From: Sediminibacterium sp. | Lineage (GTDB): Bacteria; Bacteroidota; Bacteroidia; B-17B0; Aurantibacillaceae | NCBI GenBank assembly: GCA_030054095.1 | Contig: JASGCO010000011.1 | Span: forward strand, 1 to 64,000 | Reading direction: 5' to 3' | Length of the DNA stretch: 64,000 bases | In this document: positions 12,653 through 24,289 of the stretch, in pieces | How the letters are laid out: every line of letters starts with the position of its first letter | Position numbering within the stretch: the first letter of the stretch is position 1 | The notes under the pieces: generated by a model | Told to the model about the DNA's origin: nothing | Database searches by the model: none | What the model saw: the letters and a program-made list of their open reading frames with translations, nothing else | Position numbers and translations under genes: made by a program

Positions 12653-13099
12653 TTATAACACCGGCCAGTCACTTGTCGCCACAGCTTTCCCTTTTTCCGA
12701 TTTGAACAAGAGATCTTCCAGTCCGTTACTGATAAAACAGTAGGGCGCACCAAGTTCCATATTGTACCTGAGGGCTTGTTCTATGGTTTGATTACTCAAA
12801 GAAACATCAGGGGCTTTGCATTCGATAACCATAACGGGTTCGGGAATGGTATTGTAGATGACAATATCATATCGCCGTTTTAAACCATTAAGGGAAAGTT
12901 CTTTTTCTACAGACAAAAAGCCGGGTGAAATGCCTTTATAATGGATTAACCAATGTAAGATGTGTTGCCGTACCCATTCTTCGGGACTAAGCACCAGCCA
13001 TTTTTTCCGGATGATGTCAAAGACCATGAAACGCTGCTTTTCCTGTTTTAGCCTGACGTTGATGGGTGGATATTTAAGGTCGGGAAAGATAGAACTCAA
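12653..13099 (-). CDS. Orphan HsdR N-terminal-like nuclease-fold protein
   Basis: The 148-residue protein matches the HsdR_N domain of type I restriction R subunits, without helicase or methylase parts. The PD-(D/E)xK elements are visible: the Asp in RRYDIVIYN and the Glu-x-Lys in VMVIECKAPDVSLSNQTIEQ. Stand-alone copies are common in Bacteroidota and lack hsdM/hsdS partners, as here, so a restriction role is unlikely. It diverges from the AMP nucleosidase gene across 47 bases. Function unknown. Confidence 0.82.
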   Translation of the reverse strand: MSSIFPDLKYPPINVRLKQEKQRFMVFDIIRKKWLVLSPEEWVRQHILHWLIHYKGISPGFLSVEKELSLNGLKRRYDIVIYNTIPEPVMVIECKAPDVSLSNQTIEQALRYNMELGAPYCFISNGLEDLLFKSEKGKAVATSDWPVL

Positions 13100-15085: not shown

Positions 15086-15119
15086 TTTGTAACCGTAATA
15101 AATATTTTTTTCATATTTG
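15086..15119 (+). promoter_or_regulatory. Promoter of the arginine operon leader
   Basis: TTTG at 15086-15089 and CATATTTG at 15112-15119 are spaced by 22 bases, fitting the TTTG-N17-23-TAnnTTTG pattern with one mismatch. Transcription would start near 15126 and leave a leader of about 255 bases before the first enzyme gene. Confidence 0.5.
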
Positions 15120-15167
15120 CGCGAAATTTTAAAACACTATTTAAGTCAATAAAGCGTAAAGCATAAA

Positions 15168-15305
15168 ATGAAAACACATAATTTCATTCTCTGCTCAACT
15201 GTGAATAGCAGTAAATTCAGCTCCTTGAGCAAGGGTGTGTTTTTGTCAACTCTCAAACAGTTGTTCCTTTTACCGGTTCGCCCGGTATTTTGTATCCGAC
15301 GTTGA
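15168..15305 (+). CDS. Candidate leader peptide of the arginine operon
   Basis: A 45-codon ATG frame lies in the 463-base stretch before the arginine genes. It encodes MKTHNFILCSTVNSSKF at the start and ends LPVRPVFCIRR. Arg codons occupy positions 38, 44 and 45, the last two directly before the stop. Hairpin arms flank and include these codons. Arg codons at the end of a short upstream frame suggest translational sensing of charged tRNA-Arg. This is inference; the frame may be fortuitous. Confidence 0.45.
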   Translation: MKTHNFILCSTVNSSKFSSLSKGVFLSTLKQLFLLPVRPVFCIRR

Positions 15306-15354
15306 TTCAGCGTTTCTTTTCTGAAATTTTTCTGAACTGCTTTTAACGGGCAGT
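15223..15354 (+). promoter_or_regulatory. Hairpin series in the arginine leader (attenuator candidate)
   Basis: Several short stems follow one another. CCTTGAGCAAGG is at 15223-15234. CAACT (15247-15251) pairs with AGTTG (15259-15263). ACCGG (15272-15276) pairs with CCGGT (15282-15286), with the first Arg codon in its loop. ACG-N9-CGT spans 15299-15313. ACTGC (15336-15340) pairs with GCAGT (15350-15354), ahead of a T-rich segment. The last could be a terminator or a start-sequestering stem. The rest of 14921-15383 is AT-rich and shows nothing further. Confidence 0.4.
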
Positions 15355-15383
15355 ACTTCTTATTTATTTAATCTTTTACAATT

Positions 15384-16037
15384 ATGCAACATTTCGTTGT
15401 GCAGGTGGCGCATGAGCAGCACTTGCATTATGCAGAGCAGATCTGCGGTGAAATGGAGTTGTCGGCTAAGGCTCGTGGTACGGGCATAGCTAAACGTACT
15501 CCGGAATACATCCGGCAAAAAATGCGGGAAGGAAAAGCGGTTATTGCCTTAACAAACAAGGGAGAATGGGCCGGATTTTGTTACATCGAAACCTGGAGTC
15601 ATGGTAAGTACGTGGCTAATTCAGGGTTAATTGTATCGCCGCCGTTTCGTAAAAGCGGTTTGGCAACATTAATCAAAAAGAAAATTTTCGAGTTGTCGCG
15701 GTCTAAGTACCCCGACGCTAAGCTCTTTGGGCTAACTACAGGGTTAGCAGTAATGAAAATTAATTCCGATCTGGGATACGAACCGGTAACGTATTCTGAA
15801 CTCACTCAGGATAATGATTTCTGGAAAGGGTGTCAGAGTTGTGTGAATCACGAGATCCTTATGAGCAAAGAGCGTAAGAATTGTTTGTGTACGGCTATGC
15901 TTTTCGATCCGGCAGATAATAAAAAAGCGCCCTGGTTCAATTTTGCTGGTAAAAAGCACATTCTGGAGCGACTTACACGCATAAAGCAGAACACATTTCT
16001 TAAACGCATTAAACTTAAAAACAAAGAACAGGCTTAA
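15384..16037 (+). CDS. GNAT acyltransferase, probable first enzyme of arginine synthesis
   Basis: The 217-residue protein has a GNAT core: strand-rich VIALTNKGEWAGFCYIETWS, the acyl-CoA loop VSPPFRKSGLATLIKKKIFE (R-x-x-G-x-A-like) and a C-terminal extension with a cysteine cluster. It is first in a complete arginine operon that otherwise lacks argA or argJ. It is therefore the likely glutamate N-acyltransferase, making N-succinyl- or N-acetylglutamate. Given the succinyl-type transcarbamylase downstream, succinyl-CoA is the expected donor (inference). It sits five bases before argG. Confidence 0.8.
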   Translation: MQHFVVQVAHEQHLHYAEQICGEMELSAKARGTGIAKRTPEYIRQKMREGKAVIALTNKGEWAGFCYIETWSHGKYVANSGLIVSPPFRKSGLATLIKKKIFELSRSKYPDAKLFGLTTGLAVMKINSDLGYEPVTYSELTQDNDFWKGCQSCVNHEILMSKERKNCLCTAMLFDPADNKKAPWFNFAGKKHILERLTRIKQNTFLKRIKLKNKEQA

Positions 16038-16042
16038 TTAAC

Positions 16043-17263
16043 ATGAAAAAAAATGTAGTATTAGCGTTTAGTGGTGGTTTAGATACCACATTTTGCGCAG
16101 TGTATCTTAAACACGAACAGCATTTCGATGTCCACGCGGTAACGGTAGATACTGGCGGACTAACAGAAAAGGAACGTCAGCAATTGGAACAACATGCCAC
16201 CGCATTAGGCGTAGCATCGTTTCGTATAATAGACGCGAGAACGACTTATTACAACAAAGTGCTGAAGTACCTCATTTATGGTAACGTGTTAAAAAATAAC
16301 ACGTATCCCTTATCGGTAAGCGCCGAGCGTATTGTACAGGCGTTGGTGATTGCTGATGAAGTGAAGCGGATACATGCTGATGCTGTAGCGCATGGAAGTA
16401 CTGGTGCGGGAAATGATCAGGTGCGTTTTGATATGGCGTTTCAGATTCTTATTCCGGAAGTAAACATCATAACACCTATCCGCGATTTGTCGTTATCGCG
16501 TCAGGAAGAAATTGATTACCTGAAGCAGCATCAGGTAGAAATGAATTTTGAAAAAGCAGTGTACAGTATTAACAAAGGCATGTGGGGCAATTCAGTAGGG
16601 GGAAAGGAAACCTTAACATCTGTAACCCCATTACCGGACACAGCCTGGCCAACCGCTGTTTATAAGAATGGGAAAGAACGCATTAAACTGGTGTTTAAAA
16701 ATGGGGAGTTGCTTCAGATAAATGAACAGCTATTTGCTACTGCAGCTGAAGCAATAGAAGAACTTGGCGTAATAGCAGGACCTTATGGTATTGGCAGGGA
16801 TATACATGTGGGAGATACCATTATCGGATTAAAAGGAAGAGTGGGTTTTGAGGCGGCGGCAGCACTTATTATTATTAAAGCACACCATACACTTGAAAAA
16901 CATGTGCTTACCAAGTGGCAGTTGTATTGGAAAGATCAACTGGCTTTGTGGTACGGTAACTGGCTGCACGAAGGGCAATACCTTGATCCGGTAATGCGCG
17001 ATATGGAGGCGTTTATGGATAGTACGCAAAAGTACGTGAACGGAGAAGTGTATGTGACGCTGCTGCCATATCGTTTCAGTATTGATGGCATACAGTCGCC
17101 GCACGATTTAATGAATGATGCGTTTGGTTCGTATGGCGAGATGAACAGATCGTTACGTGGGGAAGATGTGAAAGGATTTACCAAGGTGTTTGGAAATCAA
17201 ACCGCCATTTACCATAAAGTCAATAATTTACAGGACAGTTTAGTGTTTAACGGGCATGATTAG
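16043..17263 (+). CDS. argG: Argininosuccinate synthase
   Basis: The 406-residue enzyme joins citrulline and aspartate with ATP. The PP-loop is VLAFSGGLDTTFCAVYL at the N-terminus, and VAHGSTGAGNDQVRFD is the citrulline/aspartate-binding block. SVGGKETLTSVTPLPDTAWP and GRDIHVGDTIIGLKGRVGFE are further conserved segments. Length fits the family. It ends eight bases inside argC, so the two are tightly coupled. Confidence 0.96.
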   Translation: MKKNVVLAFSGGLDTTFCAVYLKHEQHFDVHAVTVDTGGLTEKERQQLEQHATALGVASFRIIDARTTYYNKVLKYLIYGNVLKNNTYPLSVSAERIVQALVIADEVKRIHADAVAHGSTGAGNDQVRFDMAFQILIPEVNIITPIRDLSLSRQEEIDYLKQHQVEMNFEKAVYSINKGMWGNSVGGKETLTSVTPLPDTAWPTAVYKNGKERIKLVFKNGELLQINEQLFATAAEAIEELGVIAGPYGIGRDIHVGDTIIGLKGRVGFEAAAALIIIKAHHTLEKHVLTKWQLYWKDQLALWYGNWLHEGQYLDPVMRDMEAFMDSTQKYVNGEVYVTLLPYRFSIDGIQSPHDLMNDAFGSYGEMNRSLRGEDVKGFTKVFGNQTAIYHKVNNLQDSLVFNGHD

Positions 17264-18233
17264 AGTAGCTGTTATAGGAGCGGCTGGATATACCGGAGGA
17301 GAGGTAATTCGCTTGTTGTTGTTGCATCCGCAAGTGCTTTTAGTATGCGCGCAAAGCGAAAGCCAAAAGGGAAAGTATATTTACGAGGTGCATCCGGATT
17401 GCTTTGGGTTAACCACCTTGCAATTCAGTGAAGAATTGGATGTTGCGGTTGATGTTGTTTTTCTTTGTAAGGGGCATGGTGAGTCGTTGCGGTATCTGAA
17501 AGAGCATGCGATACCCGATCAGACCAAAGTTATAGATCTGAGTCAGGATTTCAGGCTGGCACAGACTTCTTTTTTGGGGAAGAAACAGTTTATTTATGGC
17601 TTACCGGAATGTAACCGCGACGTAATTCGGTATGCCGCTTACATTGCTAACCCGGGATGTTTCGCTACTGCCATTCAGTTGAGCTTACTACCTGTAACCG
17701 CGGCCGGTAAACTGGAGGCGGATATACATGTCAGTGCTACAACAGGATCTACAGGAGCAGGTCAGGCATTGAGTTCCAGTTCGCATTTTTCGTGGCGGAG
17801 TAATAATCACAGTGCGTATAAGGTGTTATCGCATCAGCACGTTGCGGAGATAATGGAAACTATAGTGGCCTTGCAGGGAGCATTTCAAAATGAACTGCAT
17901 TTTATTCCTCAAAGGGGAGCTTTTACCAGAGGTATCTATTCTGTTTTACATTTTAATACCTCACTGCCGCTTTCAGAATTGAAACAGATGTATGAAACGT
18001 ATTATACCGGACATCCTTTTACACATGTGGTGCCTTTTGAGGCAGATGTAAAACAAGTGGTTAATACGAATAATTGTTTTTTATCCGTTACTAAAGTTCA
18101 GGATCGCGCAGTTATTATAGCTGTTATTGATAATCTGTTGAAAGGCGCTGCGGGTCAGGCTATACAAAACATGAATCTGATGTTTGGCATAGACGAGCGC
18201 GCTGGCCTTTTATTAAAACCTTCAGCATTTTAA
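17256..18233 (+). CDS. argC: N-acyl-gamma-glutamyl-phosphate reductase
   Basis: The 325-residue enzyme reduces acylglutamyl phosphate to the semialdehyde with NADPH. The Rossmann start is VAVIGAAGYTGGEVIRLL. Catalytic Cys135 lies in ANPGCFATAIQLSLLP, and the substrate loop is TTGSTGAGQALSSSSHFSWR. HFIPQRGAFTRGIYSVL contains the conserved His/Arg. It lies ten bases before argD. Confidence 0.96.
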   Translation: MIRVAVIGAAGYTGGEVIRLLLLHPQVLLVCAQSESQKGKYIYEVHPDCFGLTTLQFSEELDVAVDVVFLCKGHGESLRYLKEHAIPDQTKVIDLSQDFRLAQTSFLGKKQFIYGLPECNRDVIRYAAYIANPGCFATAIQLSLLPVTAAGKLEADIHVSATTGSTGAGQALSSSSHFSWRSNNHSAYKVLSHQHVAEIMETIVALQGAFQNELHFIPQRGAFTRGIYSVLHFNTSLPLSELKQMYETYYTGHPFTHVVPFEADVKQVVNTNNCFLSVTKVQDRAVIIAVIDNLLKGAAGQAIQNMNLMFGIDERAGLLLKPSAF

Positions 18234-18243
18234 AATTAGAGAG

Positions 18244-19374
18244 ATGAAACCATTTGATGTTTATACTTTGCAAGACATAACACCAGTAAGAGCTAAAGGC
18301 TCGTGGTTATGGGATGAAACTAATACCCCTTATCTGGATTTATATGGGGGCCATGCGGTGATTTCCATCGGGCATAGCCATCCAGTCTATGTGCAAAAAA
18401 TCAGTGAGCAGTTGCAGCAACTTGCATTTTATTCTAACTCCGTTATTAATCCGTTGCAACAAGAGCTGGCCTTAAAATTAGGCATACAAAGCGGATATAC
18501 AGACTACGATTTGTTTTTATGTAATTCGGGTGCAGAGGCCAATGAGAATGCGCTAAAGCTGGCTTCTTTCCGGAACGGGAGAAAAAAAGTGGTCGCGTTT
18601 TCCGGAAGTTTTCACGGGCGAACGTCTTTAGCTGTAGCCGCTACCAATGATGCGAAATTACAGGCAAAAATAAATACAGCGCATGACGTTGTATTTGTAC
18701 CGTTGAACGACAAGGAAGCCTTTTCGGCACAAATGGATGAAACTGTTTGCGCGGTTATTATAGAGGGTATTCAGGGAGTTGCAGGCATTTATGAGCCGGA
18801 ACCTTTGTTTTTACAGTATATCCGTGAACAATGTAACGCGTTTGGTGCTATGTGTATTTTGGATGAAGTTCAATCGGGATACGGACGAAGTGGATTGTTT
18901 TTTGCGCATCAGTATGTCGCTCTGCGCCCCGATCTGATTACGGTGGCAAAAGGCATGGGGAATGGTTTCCCGATTGCGGGTGTATTGATTCATCCCGATT
19001 TTAAAGCGGTTTACGGTATGCTTGGAACAACGTTTGGCGGTAACCATCTGGCCTGCGCGGCAGCTATAGCGGTATTGGATGTGATAGCACAGGAAAACCT
19101 GATGCAACGGGCAGAAACAGTGGGACAGCAATGGATACATACTTTAAAAAGTATGCCGGGGGTTAAAGATGTACGTGGTAAGGGATTAATGATAGGTGTA
19201 GAATTTGAAAAACCTATTCAGAACTTAAAACAGAGCCTGACGTTTAAACACCGGATGTTAACCGGAACAGCTGCCAATAAACAAACCATACGTCTGTTAC
19301 CGGCATTAACCATAAATCAGAACGATATAGACCGATTTAATGAGGTGTTGTACGCTGAATTACAAAATTATTAA
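18244..19374 (+). CDS. argD: N-acylornithine aminotransferase
   Basis: The 376-residue class III PLP aminotransferase converts N-acylglutamate semialdehyde to N-acylornithine. Family blocks are LYGGHAVISIGHSHPVYV, FLCNSGAEANENALKLA, FSGSFHGRTSLAVAATN, ILDEVQSGYGRSGLFFAHQY and ITVAKGMGNGFPIAGVL, the last with the PLP lysine. In this pathway the substrate is probably the succinylated form. Seven or fewer bases separate it from the transcarbamylase gene. Confidence 0.95.
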   Translation: MKPFDVYTLQDITPVRAKGSWLWDETNTPYLDLYGGHAVISIGHSHPVYVQKISEQLQQLAFYSNSVINPLQQELALKLGIQSGYTDYDLFLCNSGAEANENALKLASFRNGRKKVVAFSGSFHGRTSLAVAATNDAKLQAKINTAHDVVFVPLNDKEAFSAQMDETVCAVIIEGIQGVAGIYEPEPLFLQYIREQCNAFGAMCILDEVQSGYGRSGLFFAHQYVALRPDLITVAKGMGNGFPIAGVLIHPDFKAVYGMLGTTFGGNHLACAAAIAVLDVIAQENLMQRAETVGQQWIHTLKSMPGVKDVRGKGLMIGVEFEKPIQNLKQSLTFKHRMLTGTAANKQTIRLLPALTINQNDIDRFNEVLYAELQNY

Positions 19375-19380
19375 AACAAG

Positions 19381-20379
19381 ATGAAATACTTTACTACAGT
19401 AAATGATATAACAGATTCTGGGGGATTGGTAAAAGCGGCTTTAGCGCTGAAGAAAAATCCTTTTGCTCACAGCCATCTGGGTAAAAATAAAACGCTGGGG
19501 CTTATTTTTCTGAATCCGAGTTTGAGAACACGCCTGAGTACGCAAAAAGCGGCCCGTATGCTGGGAATGGATGTGGTAATCATGAACATGGATAAAGAAA
19601 GCTGGGCCATTGAATGGAAAGACGATGTGATAATGAACGGATCAACAGTAGAGCACATTAAAGATGCGGCGGCTGTGCTTGGTATGTATTGCGATATTAT
19701 TGGTATCCGGTGTTTTGCATCTTTATCCGACAGGGGACAGGATTATAGTGAACACTTGTTGGTACAATTAATGCGTTATTGTCAAGTACCAGTGGTAAGC
19801 CTCGAGTCGGCTACATTACATCCTTTGCAAAGTCTGGCGGACGCTATAACAATTGCTGAACACCAGCGGAAAGGCATAAGACCCAAAGTAGTGTTAACCT
19901 GGGCGCCTCATATTAAACCTTTACCGCAGGCGGTAGCTAATTCGTTTTCTGAATGGATGTTGCGGTTAGATACGGATGTAACGATTGCCTGTCCGGAGGG
20001 ATACGATTTATGTGAAGATTACACACGGGGCGCAAAGCTAACGCATAACCAGGAGGAAGCCTTGAAGGACGCTGATTTTATTTATGTGAAAAATTGGTCG
20101 GCCTACGAACCGTATGGTGCTATGCCGGAGGTAAAAACAAACTGGATGTTAACAGAAGAGAAGTACCGTTTGTCGGCTCAGGCACATATTATGCATTGCC
20201 TGCCGGTTAGGCGTAATCTGGAATTAAGTTCGGCCTTAATTGATCATCCGAATAGTTTGGTAAAACATCAGGCCGAAAACCGGCTGTATGCCGCTATGGT
20301 GGTTTTAAAAACGATGCTGGAAACAGTAAGAAAAACGGAAACAAGTACGATTGAAGTACAAGAAATAGAGCAGGTATGA
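19381..20379 (+). CDS. argF': N-succinylornithine carbamoyltransferase (SOTCase/AOTCase family)
   Basis: The 332-residue transcarbamylase belongs to the acylornithine group, not classical ArgF. The carbamoyl phosphate loop is NPSLRTRLSTQKAARMLGM. The 80s loop reads GSTVEHIKDAAAVLG, and HCLPVRRNLELSSALIDHPN is the C-terminal block. Residue 90 is Val, where the Bacteroides fragilis succinylornithine enzyme has Pro90 and the Xanthomonas acetylornithine enzyme has Glu92. Published substitutions of that Glu, including to Val as I recall, switch acetyl to succinyl preference, so SOTCase activity is predicted. Its stop overlaps argB (ATGA). Confidence 0.92.
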   Translation: MKYFTTVNDITDSGGLVKAALALKKNPFAHSHLGKNKTLGLIFLNPSLRTRLSTQKAARMLGMDVVIMNMDKESWAIEWKDDVIMNGSTVEHIKDAAAVLGMYCDIIGIRCFASLSDRGQDYSEHLLVQLMRYCQVPVVSLESATLHPLQSLADAITIAEHQRKGIRPKVVLTWAPHIKPLPQAVANSFSEWMLRLDTDVTIACPEGYDLCEDYTRGAKLTHNQEEALKDADFIYVKNWSAYEPYGAMPEVKTNWMLTEEKYRLSAQAHIMHCLPVRRNLELSSALIDHPNSLVKHQAENRLYAAMVVLKTMLETVRKTETSTIEVQEIEQV

Positions 20380-21152
20380 AAACAGTGTATGTGATTAAAA
20401 TAGGAGGGAATGTTGTGGATGATGACAAAGTGCTGCAACGCTTTTTGAAAAAACTGACAGATCTGAACGTTCCTTTAGTATTGGTGCATGGCGGAGGAAA
20501 ACTGGCAACGGAATTGTCGCAGCAGATGAATATAAGAACAAAAATGGTGGAGGGGCGACGGATTACAGATGAGGTTACTTTAAAAGTAGTAACCATGGTG
20601 TATGCCGGTTGGATAAATAAAACGATTGTGGCTAAACTGAACGCTTTGGGAGCAGCGGCTATAGGCTTGTGTGGCGCAGATGCACTGTTAATAAAGGCAA
20701 CACGCCGTAAACCCCAACCGGTTGATTATGGGTTTGTTGGTGACATTGCGCCGGAAGGAATCAACGCTGCTTTTTTGAGTAAGTTGTTAAAACAGGGATT
20801 AATGCCGGTGATAGCGCCTATTACAGCCACTGCAAAAGGTCAGTTATTAAATACTAATGCCGATACAATTGCTTCATCAGTAGCCGTTGCACTGGCAAAG
20901 GATCATAAGGTTAAACTGATTTATTGTTTCGAAAAGAAAGGGGTATTGAACGGCGTAAAGGTGATTAGAGCAATAAATCCACGTATTTATAGTCAGTTAA
21001 AAGCAGATAAGGTAGTAAAAGATGGTATGATTCCTAAGCTGGATAACGCGTTTCATTCTGTTCAAAAAGGGGTGAAAGAAGTTAAAATAGGAAGTGCTAC
21101 TCACATTCATTCACTCGTATTAAAACATGCAGGAACCAGTATTGTACTATAA
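20376..21152 (+). CDS. argB: N-acylglutamate kinase
   Basis: The 258-residue amino-acid kinase family enzyme phosphorylates N-acylglutamate. The N-terminal nucleotide loop is YVIKIGGNVVDD, followed by PLVLVHGGGKLATELSQQMN for the substrate/ATP site. LLNTNADTIASSVAVALAKD and KDGMIPKLDNAFHSVQKGVK are the C-terminal catalytic segments. It lacks the long N-terminal helix of arginine-inhibited hexameric kinases, so feedback inhibition here is less likely. It overlaps argE by 26 bases. Confidence 0.95.
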   Translation: MKTVYVIKIGGNVVDDDKVLQRFLKKLTDLNVPLVLVHGGGKLATELSQQMNIRTKMVEGRRITDEVTLKVVTMVYAGWINKTIVAKLNALGAAAIGLCGADALLIKATRRKPQPVDYGFVGDIAPEGINAAFLSKLLKQGLMPVIAPITATAKGQLLNTNADTIASSVAVALAKDHKVKLIYCFEKKGVLNGVKVIRAINPRIYSQLKADKVVKDGMIPKLDNAFHSVQKGVKEVKIGSATHIHSLVLKHAGTSIVL

Positions 21153-22218
21153 AGATCAGGAAAGGTTGTTTACCGAAGCGGTTGATTTACTGTCGGGTTT
21201 AATTGCTACGGCAAGCTATAGCCGCGAAGAGGCGCATACCGCGGAACTGATAGAGCAGTTTCTTTTGCGCAAAGGATGTAAGGCAGAGCGGTATTTGAAT
21301 AATGTTTGGGTAAAGAGTAACCACTTTAAAGCCGATAAACCTGTTTTGCTTTTAAATTCACATCACGATACAGTGAAGCCTAATGCCGGATATACACTGG
21401 ATCCGTTTCAACCGCTTATAAAAGAAGGAAGATTGTATGGTTTAGGATCTAATGATGCGGGAGGTGCTTTGGTTGCGCTGTTAATGACATTTTTATATTT
21501 CGCAAACGATCCGGATTTACCATTTAATCTGGTGTATATTGCCAGTGCCGAAGAAGAAATTTCAGGTAGCAATGGTATAGAAGCTGTGTTGCCAAAAGTA
21601 GGAAGGATTGATTTTGGTATTGTGGGTGAACCTACGCAAATGCAGATGGCGGTGGCAGAAAAGGGATTATTGGTTATGGATGCTGTCTGTTACGGGAAGT
21701 CTGGTCACGCCGCGCGGGAAGAAGGAGATAGCGCCTTGTATAAAGCTATTCAGGATATACAGTGGATTAAAAATTATCATTTTCAGAATACATCGGCATT
21801 ACTGGGGCCGGTTAAAATGTCGGTCACTGTAGTGGAAACTCCGAATAAGGCTCATAATGTAATACCGGCGGAGTGTCGTTATGTGATAGATGTTCGTGTT
21901 AATGATTGTTACACTCACGAACAGATTATTGAGACGCTACAACCGCATTTGCAGGCAGAACTGAAACCAAGAAGTTTAAGAATGCGGTCTTCATCTATTG
22001 CATTAGATCACCCATTGGTAAAAAGCGGACTGGAAGCAGGCAGATCGTGTTACGGTTCTCCAACAACCAGCGATAAAGCGCTGATGCCGTTTCCGGCTTT
22101 AAAGATGGGACCCGGGGATAGTGCCAGAAGCCATACAGCTGATGAATACATTTATCTGGAAGAAATTAGAGAAGGTATTGAGTTATATATAAAACTCCTT
22201 CAGGGGCTGATTATTTGA
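21127..22218 (+). CDS. argE: M20 N-acylcitrulline/N-acylornithine deacylase
   Basis: The 363-residue M20 metallopeptidase-family enzyme has the dizinc motifs LLLNSHHDTVKPN, GSNDAGGALVAL, and ASAEEEISGSNG with the catalytic Glu. The terminal HTADEYIYLEEIREGIE supplies the last His ligand. In this pathway it should remove the succinyl group from N-succinylcitrulline after the transcarbamylase step, as in Bacteroides, rather than deacetylate ornithine (inference from operon context). Its ATG lies inside the end of argB. Confidence 0.92.
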   Translation: MQEPVLYYKDQERLFTEAVDLLSGLIATASYSREEAHTAELIEQFLLRKGCKAERYLNNVWVKSNHFKADKPVLLLNSHHDTVKPNAGYTLDPFQPLIKEGRLYGLGSNDAGGALVALLMTFLYFANDPDLPFNLVYIASAEEEISGSNGIEAVLPKVGRIDFGIVGEPTQMQMAVAEKGLLVMDAVCYGKSGHAAREEGDSALYKAIQDIQWIKNYHFQNTSALLGPVKMSVTVVETPNKAHNVIPAECRYVIDVRVNDCYTHEQIIETLQPHLQAELKPRSLRMRSSSIALDHPLVKSGLEAGRSCYGSPTTSDKALMPFPALKMGPGDSARSHTADEYIYLEEIREGIELYIKLLQGLII

Positions 22219-22242
22219 AAAATTAAAACTGGAATAGTAGAA

Positions 22243-23451
22243 ATGGAAGCAACGAAACTTTGGGAAAAAGGAATTACAACGGATGAAAAAATAGCCCGTT
22301 TTACCGTGGGCAGAGATCCTGAATTTGATAAATTCATTGCCCCTTACGATATAAAAGCTTCTGCCGCGCATGCGCAGATGCTGGTAAGTGTAGGATTATT
22401 ATCGGCAGAGGAATGCTCAGCTTTACAAGAGGGATTAGAAGAATTGTCTGATCAGGTTAAGAATGGAACGTTTAGTATTGAGGAGGGCGTAGAAGATGTG
22501 CACTCGCAGATAGAACTGTTTTTAACGCGTCGTTGCGGTGAAGCCGGGAAAAAAATTCACACGGCACGGTCGCGGAACGATCAGGTGCTAACCGCTATAA
22601 AATTATATCTGAAAGATGAATTGTTATCTGTTCGAGAGAAGACAGAACAATTAATTGCAGTATTCCGGCAGTTATCAAAGCGGTTTTCGGGGATTGTATT
22701 GCCAGGTTACACCCATTTTCAGATAGCAATGCCCTCATCGTTTGATATGTGGCTGAATGCCTATGCCGAAAGTCTGGAAGATGATTTGGCTTTTGTTTCA
22801 GCGGCGTTAACCATTTGTGATAAAAATCCATTAGGAAGCGCGGCGGGTTTTGGAACCTCTTTTCCCATTGACCGGGCTTTAACCACGCGCCTGTTGCAGT
22901 TTGGCGCATGCAACGAAAGTCCGGTTTATGCCCAGATGACCAGGGGTAAATCGGAAAAAGCGGTCGCCATTGCATTGGGAGCTATTGCACAAACACTTTC
23001 AAAGTTTGCGTATGATGTGTGTTTGTACCTGTGTCAGAATTTTGGTTTCATTTCCTTTCCCGAAAGTCTGACTACCGGTAGCAGCATTATGCCGCATAAA
23101 AAAAATCCGGATGTGTTTGAATTGCTTCGGGCAAGATGCAACGTGTTACAAGGATTACCCAATCAGTTTACTTTACTGATCAATAATCTGCCAAGCGGAT
23201 ACCACAGAGATATGCAGCTAACCAAAGAATTGATCTTTCCTGCAATAGAAGATATGAAGCGCTGTACAGATGTATTGCTTCATGTACTGCCTGAAATGTC
23301 AGTGAATACAACTATTCTGAATGACCCTAAATATAAATACCTGTATAGTGTGGATGAGGTAAATAAACTTGTTATGGAAGGGATTTCGTTCCGGGAGGCA
23401 TACAGGATCATTGCTCAACGGATTGCCAGTCAGGAACCGCCGTTTAGTTAA
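22243..23451 (+). CDS. argH: Argininosuccinate lyase
   Basis: The 402-residue fumarase-superfamily enzyme splits argininosuccinate to arginine and fumarate. It has HTARSRNDQVLTAIKLYLKD, the His block LPGYTHFQIAMPSSFDMWL, and the signature GSSIMPHKKNPDVFELLRAR. It ends soon after ISFREAYRIIAQRIASQ, roughly 20-50 residues earlier than common ArgH proteins. The missing part is the peripheral C-terminal domain, so activity is probably kept. It is the last operon gene and ends one base before the convergent Thg1 stop. Confidence 0.95.
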   Translation: MEATKLWEKGITTDEKIARFTVGRDPEFDKFIAPYDIKASAAHAQMLVSVGLLSAEECSALQEGLEELSDQVKNGTFSIEEGVEDVHSQIELFLTRRCGEAGKKIHTARSRNDQVLTAIKLYLKDELLSVREKTEQLIAVFRQLSKRFSGIVLPGYTHFQIAMPSSFDMWLNAYAESLEDDLAFVSAALTICDKNPLGSAAGFGTSFPIDRALTTRLLQFGACNESPVYAQMTRGKSEKAVAIALGAIAQTLSKFAYDVCLYLCQNFGFISFPESLTTGSSIMPHKKNPDVFELLRARCNVLQGLPNQFTLLINNLPSGYHRDMQLTKELIFPAIEDMKRCTDVLLHVLPEMSVNTTILNDPKYKYLYSVDEVNKLVMEGISFREAYRIIAQRIASQEPPFS

Positions 23452-23452
23452 T

Positions 23453-24289
23453 TTACTGGTCGTTTTCTTCAGCGTTTTCAGTAGTATTTAGTAATGGTGT
23501 TTCGTTAAAAAAGACAACACCGGTTTTATTACTGATTTTACTGAAAATGGGATATTCGATAGTTTGGATGATATGTCTTTCTATGATGAGATCCGGATTT
23601 TTATGTGCCTTATGGTGTTTCGGTAACTGGCTTAATTCATCTTTACTGAATGGCTTTTGGGTTTTAATACGTTTAATATAAGTCCCTCGTTTAAATTTTA
23701 CCTCAAGGTCATTCCAGTTTACATTTTTCTCCAGCATCATTTTATCCTGTAACTGCGAACCGTTTAAACCTTGCAGGCTTTTGTGCGAAAAGAGGCTTTG
23801 TGCCAACATTGAGATGCTGTTTTTGGTGGCATCGTTTTCTCTCCATAATAGTTGCGCACACGCATCTTTCAGGGTAGGGGTCTGATAAATCCGGCAATCG
23901 AATATAGCTGTTTTATCATGTTCAGGTAAGTAACGCTGACGCTCGTCGTTAAAAAAGGACACGCATTTGGCGGTTAGCTTAGAGACAATCTTTTGTTTTT
24001 TCCCATCGTTATAAAGTGCTGATTGCCTGTCGTCAGAGTAAAGAATAAGCGTGATCTCATCCGATTGAGTATAACCAATAACGGCGTTGGTTTCCTTTAC
24101 CAGAAAACGGGTGGTTTCAATCATTAAATCGGTAAGGCGCTCGTCAAACGGGCGTTTTAGGTCTTTTGTCCAGTTATGGAAATTGTTCCCGTCTAAGCGT
24201 ATGATAACCGGCAGAGAGGGAATCATGATTTCATTACTGAAATTTTTTTCCAGCCATTTACACCAATCGCCTAATGTTTTAAAGTCCAT
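23453..24289 (-). CDS. Thg1-like 3'-5' nucleotidyltransferase
   Basis: The 278-residue protein belongs to the tRNA-His guanylyltransferase superfamily, which adds nucleotides in the 3'-5' direction. The palm-domain metal ligands are visible: IIRLDGNNFHNWTKDLKRPF with Asp33, and GYTQSDEITLILYSDD with Asp77. KLTAKCVSFFNDERQ and DCRIYQTPTLKDACAQLLWR follow the family order. Most bacteria encode G-1 of tRNA-His in the gene, so bacterial copies are usually Thg1-like proteins (TLPs) that repair truncated tRNA 5' ends. It stands alone, convergent to argH. Confidence 0.88.
   Translation of the reverse strand: MDFKTLGDWCKWLEKNFSNEIMIPSLPVIIRLDGNNFHNWTKDLKRPFDERLTDLMIETTRFLVKETNAVIGYTQSDEITLILYSDDRQSALYNDGKKQKIVSKLTAKCVSFFNDERQRYLPEHDKTAIFDCRIYQTPTLKDACAQLLWRENDATKNSISMLAQSLFSHKSLQGLNGSQLQDKMMLEKNVNWNDLEVKFKRGTYIKRIKTQKPFSKDELSQLPKHHKAHKNPDLIIERHIIQTIEYPIFSKISNKTGVVFFNETPLLNTTENAEENDQ

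Follow-up and report, generated by a model that had tools for sequence, protein, structure and literature searches.

The window, which is the whole stretch of 64,000 nt of DNA analysed here, carries on its forward strand an arginine operon of eight genes (15384-23451). Its first gene (gene 1, 15384-16037) encodes a GNAT acetyltransferase (Pfam PF00583) that is argA-like by context. Pfam matches and gene boundaries place behind it, on the same strand, argG, argC, argD, a gene for an argF-like product (an ornithine/aspartate-type carbamoyltransferase), argB, an argE-like M20 peptidase gene and argH (16043-23451). Gene 1 and argG were each found in 15 of 60 genomes, and these genomes are the same for both. 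Within the genus of the window (37 genomes, G000-G036), gene 1 and argG occur in only six, and the other members seem to lack the arginine operon along with the leader described below. Two bases from argH, and tail to tail with it, a bacterial Thg1-like protein is encoded on the reverse strand (23453-24289; Pfam Thg1, E 2e-26), and a small stand-alone HsdR N-terminal domain protein (PF13588) is encoded on the reverse strand at 12653-13099.

Between the end of a MeaB-like gene (14920) and the start of gene 1 (15384) lies a short open reading frame, running on the forward strand from an ATG at 15168 to a TGA at 15303-15305 and comprising 45 codons, with the sequence MKTHNFILCSTVNSSKFSSLSKGVFLSTLKQLFLLPVRPVFCIRR and the C-terminus RPVFCIRR. 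The first-pass annotation of this DNA had read a 45-codon frame ending in CIRR as the possible leader peptide of an attenuator, and the existence of this frame, at 15168-15305, is confirmed. Its last eight codons include three Arg codons. Arg38, at position -8 from the stop, is encoded by CGC (15279-15281) and is an invariant Arg in the window clade; Arg44 and Arg45, encoded by CGA (15297-15299) and CGT (15300-15302) immediately 5' of the TGA, stand at -2 and -1 from the stop, the former with the codon found below to be enriched in leaders. Upstream, a putative promoter -7-like box, CATATTTG (15112-15119, forward strand), resembles the Bacteroidota promoter consensus TAnnTTTG given in the available text of PMC9723704, and is kept as ATATTTG or TACATTTG upstream of all ten aligned leaders. 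The fold of the leader region has a z of -2.5 relative to shuffles, 2 of 200 shuffles being equally good, and no match to a T-box or other known RNA family of Rfam was obtained at gathering score across the whole 64,000-nt window.

The occurrence of the leader was followed in orthologous loci of gene 1, taken from whole genomes (15 of 60 relatives) and named contigs (80 loci), 95 loci in all. In 88 of the 95, a frame of 14-60 codons carries two or more Arg in its last ten. The same type of short frame occurs in 78 of 84 non-redundant loci with sufficient upstream DNA, a set that leaves out 10 near-duplicates and L030 (135 nt upstream only), and is absent from the other six, namely L010, L012, L075 and the Flavobacterium loci L080, L081 and L088. 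Under a strict rule (30-50 codons, at least three Arg in the last ten, stop 40-220 nt upstream of gene 1), a leader was recovered in 64 of 94 loci, a count that takes in the 10 near-duplicates, dinucleotide shuffles and flanking windows giving expectations of 1.5 and 2.2. In a second sample, drawn from the class, gene 1 was present in 110 of 296 genomes, and the leader occurred in 49 of 79 ArgR-less genomes versus 5.8 in shuffles, nine of the 79 being already part of the first set. Alignment of orthologous leaders had been put forward in the first-pass annotation as one way to check its reading; these leaders retain the frame and its terminal Arg codons, and covariation was found for several of the hairpins described below, so that the outcomes named there as refuting did not arise. 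A profile built from nine leaders matched six of 60 genomes with E below 1e-20, exactly the genus members possessing the operon, the next best match having an E of 0.0014. Since these six genomes contributed to the profile, the informative part of the search is that it revealed no extra copies, and no leader in the 31 genus genomes without the operon.

The substitution pattern indicates that the leader frame is translated. In the window clade, pN/pS is 0.47 in the leader frame versus 0.98 and 1.53 in the other frames, and falls to 0.35 in the last 12 codons. Five further groups gave 0.52-0.75 in frame against 0.89-1.37 in the other frames, with values for the last 12 codons of 0.14-0.35 across groups, the exception being a Mucilaginibacter-like group (0.66). 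Leader length is exactly 45 codons in all seven nearest members of the window clade and 44 in four more, and falls between 41 and 45 codons in 87 of 139 distinct leaders. Among these 139, position -2 from the stop is Arg in 79%, position -8 in 51% and position -1 in 38%, compared with a frequency of 3.5% in the remainder of the frame; loci without at least two Arg were left out of these counts, as well as from those on terminators and on pairing with the gene 1 start given below. C-terminal motifs and lengths vary between clades. Codon choice is also skewed: in a comparison of 65 named loci, CGA accounts for 73 of 198 Arg codons in leaders (37%) and for 253 of 3307 (8%) in genes, the latter taken from long frames of the same loci. 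CGA is decoded via inosine wobble and is slow, so its enrichment fits the codon choice expected of a ribosome-based arginine sensor.

ArgR is the textbook arginine control in bacteria, exerting feedback on the arginine genes. The ArgR model (PF02863) matches 8 of 14 control genomes, a Bacteroides among them, and has no match in the 60 relatives, the genome of the window included, or in the 50 genomes behind the named loci. In the class sample ArgR was found in 10 of 80 genomes with gene 1, and in all ten argR is the gene immediately ahead of gene 1, in the same orientation. None of these 10 ArgR-bearing genomes has an Arg leader, versus 49 of the 79 ArgR-less ones (Fisher p 1.7e-4, with genomes counted as if unrelated and with fewer chance frames possible in ArgR-bearing loci, since their upstream stretch is argR coding sequence); of the 110 class genomes that have gene 1, the comparison omits the 21 without an assigned ArgR status. 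Neither ArgR nor a strict-rule leader occurs in 30 of the 79 ArgR-less genomes, several of which still have two terminal Arg codons. As argR sits upstream of gene 1 and the leader is never found alongside it, both use the same place and are not seen together, and an Arg leader-peptide attenuator apparently stands in for ArgR.

Several conserved hairpins lie within and around the frame. In an alignment of seven sequences (A5), six helices were obtained with 93.7% of cells paired, and 11 of 45 pairs are changed on both sides versus 5.9 in shuffles, none of 500 shuffles reaching as high a value. Helix P1, which is RNAalifold helix 1 of A5, joins AAAACAC in the 5' UTR (15131-15137) to GTGTTTT within the leader frame (15237-15243), both partners of one pair being changed in L007; its 5' strand in the window sequence was set by complementarity alone, because L001 is misaligned there. 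Across the start codon, a hairpin with the arms AATGAAA and TTTCATT (15167-15188) is invariant in seven of seven close relatives and thus carries little information; taken in isolation, it is not predicted to fold in L018, L004 and L022. In L005, L018 and L019 its end pair changes from A-U to G-C jointly with an ATG to GTG change of the start codon. In hairpin P3 (ACTGT gaata GCAGT, 15198-15212, leader codons 11-15), the stems vary freely in sequence, yet 49 of 50 cells are paired in 10 sequences and four of five pairs are changed on both sides, whereas permuted 3' arms gave a mean of 28.8 paired cells and in 0 of 20000 permutations matched the observed value. Further along, a CTC.TT/AAG.G hairpin followed by TGTGTTTTT (15221-15245) was recognized by eye in each of the 11 clade members aligned and is a possible RNA polymerase pause site. 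Hairpin P4 (CAACT...AGTTG, 15247-15263; helix 5 of A5), also within the frame, has 95% of cells paired and one pair changed on both sides. A long-range TCAAC/GTTGA pairing suggested by an 11-sequence fold is not trusted, since the alignment is poor for four of the sequences and three of these break one of its pairs.

The hairpin on which the first-pass annotation had laid weight fared differently. The third Arg codon, CGC38, does lie in the loop of a hairpin as claimed, enclosed by TACCGG/CCGGTA (15271-15287). The ACCGG/CCGGT stem, present here, is lost in the close relatives L003 and L016, though the Arg codon is kept there, and from this comparison it is probably incidental, so that its proposed role as a functional hairpin does not hold. 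The annotation had also envisaged a series of alternative stems reaching up to the first enzyme gene. Two more hairpins do follow, at 15298-15314 and 15336-15354, but mutual exclusion between stems was not found in the window clade. The former (GACGTTG att CAGCGTT) overlaps the terminal Arg codons and the stop; it occurs in most clade members with differing sequences, overlapping CGACGTTGA, has a mean z of -1.8 and is weak in L002 and L007.

The second of these, ACTGCTTTTAACGGGCAGT (15336-15354, forward strand), is terminator-like and is followed by a T-rich tail (15355-15379). Of 11 window-clade loci, 10 have a hairpin with a T-rich tail 25-43 nt before gene 1, and in each of the 10 none of 20 shuffles equalled it. 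Compensatory changes were recorded in four gapless members, where 12 pairs have 97.9% of cells paired and five are changed on both sides. The T tract that follows the hairpin in the window clade is interrupted, and in L007 the hairpin is present with fewer T in its tail. Over all leaders, a terminator-like site beating at least 19 of 20 shuffles was found in 41 of 145, and two distant loci (L053 and L143) have perfect textbook terminators following shorter leaders.

In a classical attenuator, a stalled ribosome favours a stem that forbids the terminator. No such antiterminator was found in the 11 window-clade members, in which the terminator-like hairpin was predicted to form with a probability of about 0.9-0.98 whether the ribosome was placed on Arg -8, -2 or -1 or on the stop codon. 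Kinetic folding of the window clade revealed no consistent trend for the 5' arm to pair before the 3' arm is transcribed. Folding of the full leader RNA without a ribosome disfavours the hairpin in L007 (probability 0.00) and, less strongly, in L004 (0.68), and not in the other nine. An in silico switch was obtained in L053, where the terminator probability of 0.97 with the ribosome at the stop drops to 0.01 upon a stall at Arg -11 and to 0.63 at Arg -8, and is unchanged at -7 and -6. A comparable drop at one Arg codon was seen in L203, these two being the only such cases in 31 loci tried. Where Arg codons abut the stop, the positions of a stalled and of a terminating ribosome differ little.

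Taken together, we regard it as rather probable that 15121-15383 (263 bases) is a regulatory leader in which stalling at Arg codons under shortage brings about expression of the eight-gene operon, likely by relieving termination. Sequence comparison has established a frame that is constrained as a translated one is, its Arg codons and several conserved hairpins, and has shown that the leader goes with the arginine operon and that ArgR is missing. We infer that the ribosome stalls on uncharged tRNA-Arg, that shortage raises expression and that termination is the output, the last two points from the pathway that is regulated. A ribosome would translate the 45-codon peptide ahead of the operon and, when charged tRNA-Arg is scarce, would stall at CGC38 or at CGA44-CGT45. 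The stall would alter the fate of the downstream RNA and allow readthrough into the operon mainly under arginine shortage, whereas with ample arginine the ribosome would complete the frame and leave, and the transcript would be cut short at 15336-15379. Premature termination at this hairpin and T-rich tract, relieved by the stall, is the most likely output, and RNA polymerase might pause at the hairpins within the frame, letting the first ribosome keep pace. Because the leader is conserved in many Bacteroidota without the usual repressor, the ribosome itself probably senses the shortage of arginine. The Arg sensor is well supported; given that the ACCGG/CCGGT stem is not conserved and that no competing antiterminator was found in the clade, an RNA switch joining stall to output is what we infer. 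The layout of ribosome-mediated attenuation claimed by the first-pass annotation thus stands as far as an Arg leader before an arginine operon is concerned, and its alternative stems were not found in the window clade. Against our explanation stand the terminator-like hairpin that persists in the window clade wherever the ribosome is placed, its interrupted T tract, the minority of leaders with a strong terminator-like site, the closeness of the Arg codons to the stop, and ArgR-less genomes that have no recognisable leader, the three Flavobacterium loci among them.

The main rival, unlikely in our estimate, is an arrest driven by the nascent peptide, in which the peptide together with arginine or a related metabolite would stall the ribosome at or beside the stop and so fix the output. 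Consistent with it, constraint within clades extends to the non-Arg residues among the last 13 codons (pN/pS 0.19-0.57), C-terminal motifs such as RPxPFxVRR and RRPILPRA are shared among leaders, 87 of 139 leaders have 41-45 codons and Arg stands precisely at -2 in 79%. Frames of only 15-25 codons with Arg runs are however found in other families (L195, L206 and L207), and the last Arg lies 3-7 codons ahead of the stop in 28 of the 139 leaders. The enrichment of the rare codon CGA suggests, moreover, that the rate of decoding and not the peptide alone is at stake, although RNA pairing could also keep CGA. A combination of the two, in which CGA would read tRNA-Arg charging, the C-terminal peptide would hold the terminating ribosome and a non-classical RNA switch would complete a dual sensor replacing ArgR, is proposed only tentatively and is doubtful on present evidence. 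Its conserved peptide elements would be the Arg at -8 and -2 from the stop and, if true, it would place an Arg-codon leader in the position of the repressor across much of the Bacteroidota.

Other outputs of a stall, or none, have also to be weighed against relieved termination. In translational attenuation, a stretch near the Arg codons would pair with the start region of gene 1 and a stalled ribosome would free the start. Six Sphingobacteriaceae-type leaders (L077, L078, L095, L142, L149 and L042) do pair GACGACC[C/T]A with T[G/A]GGTC just upstream of gene 1, with one C-G to U-A exchange, and some Chitinophagaceae pair strongly. Overall there is no excess (13 of 145 loci at k<=1 of 20 versus 14 expected), 23 Chitinophagaceae-type leaders pair with their own gene 1 start at -11.9 kcal/mol against -11.5 kcal/mol for swapped partners, and the pairing is not seen in the window clade, all of which makes this explanation improbable. 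A general pairing of Arg codons with the gene 1 start was rejected, there being no excess and swapped pairs being nearly equal; by this comparison, masking of the gene 1 start of the ermC type does not appear to be general, and the Sphingobacteriaceae-type leaders may be an exception. Rho-dependent termination past the leader, blocked by the stalled ribosome as with TnaC, would fit the lack of a competing antiterminator, and a C-rich, G-poor stretch was noted by eye past the stop of Chitinophagaceae leaders. What the window clade shows instead is a conserved terminator-like hairpin, with a post-stop stretch that by eye is not C-rich, and termination by Rho seems likewise improbable. Very improbable indeed is an incidental frame, with the operon controlled by an unrelated DNA-binding regulator: some ArgR-less genomes without the leader still keep gene 1, yet the frame, the Arg codons and the protein-level constraint are conserved well past chance.

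Ribosome-mediated transcription attenuation has long been known from the trp, his and thr leaders of E. coli. The leader preferred here, an Arg-codon sensor acting on termination, resembles them in having a short frame rich in the codons of the pathway, then hairpins, and a terminator-like hairpin before the first gene. It differs in that arginine is sensed, the frames mostly have 41-45 codons, the Arg codons adjoin the stop, covarying hairpins lie within the frame and the window clade yielded no competing antiterminator. Leader peptides such as the fungal arginine attenuator peptide, TnaC and SpeFL respond to arginine or to another small molecule and arrest near the end of the frame. They require a specific nascent chain and a free ligand, whereas the common element here is the Arg codons, with peptides and lengths variable across clades. 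ArgR, in turn, is a DNA-binding protein; it is absent here, and in ArgR-bearing Bacteroidia its gene takes the leader's position before gene 1.

The transcriptome of Flavobacterium psychrophilum has provided clues for leader-peptide attenuation ahead of amino-acid operons (PMC9723704), in the same phylum and with the same type of control; no arginine leader is named in the available portion of that article, and the three loci titled Flavobacterium in our set (L080, L081 and L088) have no Arg leader. In Staphylococcus aureus, the available text on rbfL (PMC13009471) describes a small frame, placed upstream, in which rare Arg codons serve to sense a limitation of arginine; it differs in that its target is a biofilm regulator and no arginine operon, and in that stalling blocks the ribosome binding site and represses translation. 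A search of the open literature, most subscription journals lying outside it, found no arginine-operon leader in Bacteroidota. Ribosome-mediated attenuation as such is thus already known, its arginine-operon version in Bacteroidota is apparently new, and the reading as an Arg leader peptide is strongly supported. Many genomes of one phylum that have an Arg-codon leader in the position of a missing ArgR amount to a clean swap of regulators, and they put many natural leaders on hand for ribosome-mediated control in Bacteroidota, which hardly use Shine-Dalgarno sites, and for a possible combined sensing of peptide and codons.

Some groups of loci present further elements at or behind the leader stop. 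Ten Chitinophagaceae-like loci (L044, L048, L061, L069, L073, L079, L086, L087, L090 and L094) have the stop inside a conserved stem, CTGAtAGGACGAGC...CCTaTCAGTGA, which is possibly the switch element of that group. Several of L006, L008, L020, L024 and L074 have a hairpin past the leader with a YACGC-like loop that faces a GCGTA right after the stop, a possible pseudoknot. In the Pedobacter loci L066, L067, L083 and L092, about 60 nearly invariant bases (AGAGGATTGCCTCT..AAAAAACAATTAAT..TTTTTTCGTTA) stand between the leader and gene 1, exceeding what the leader would need.
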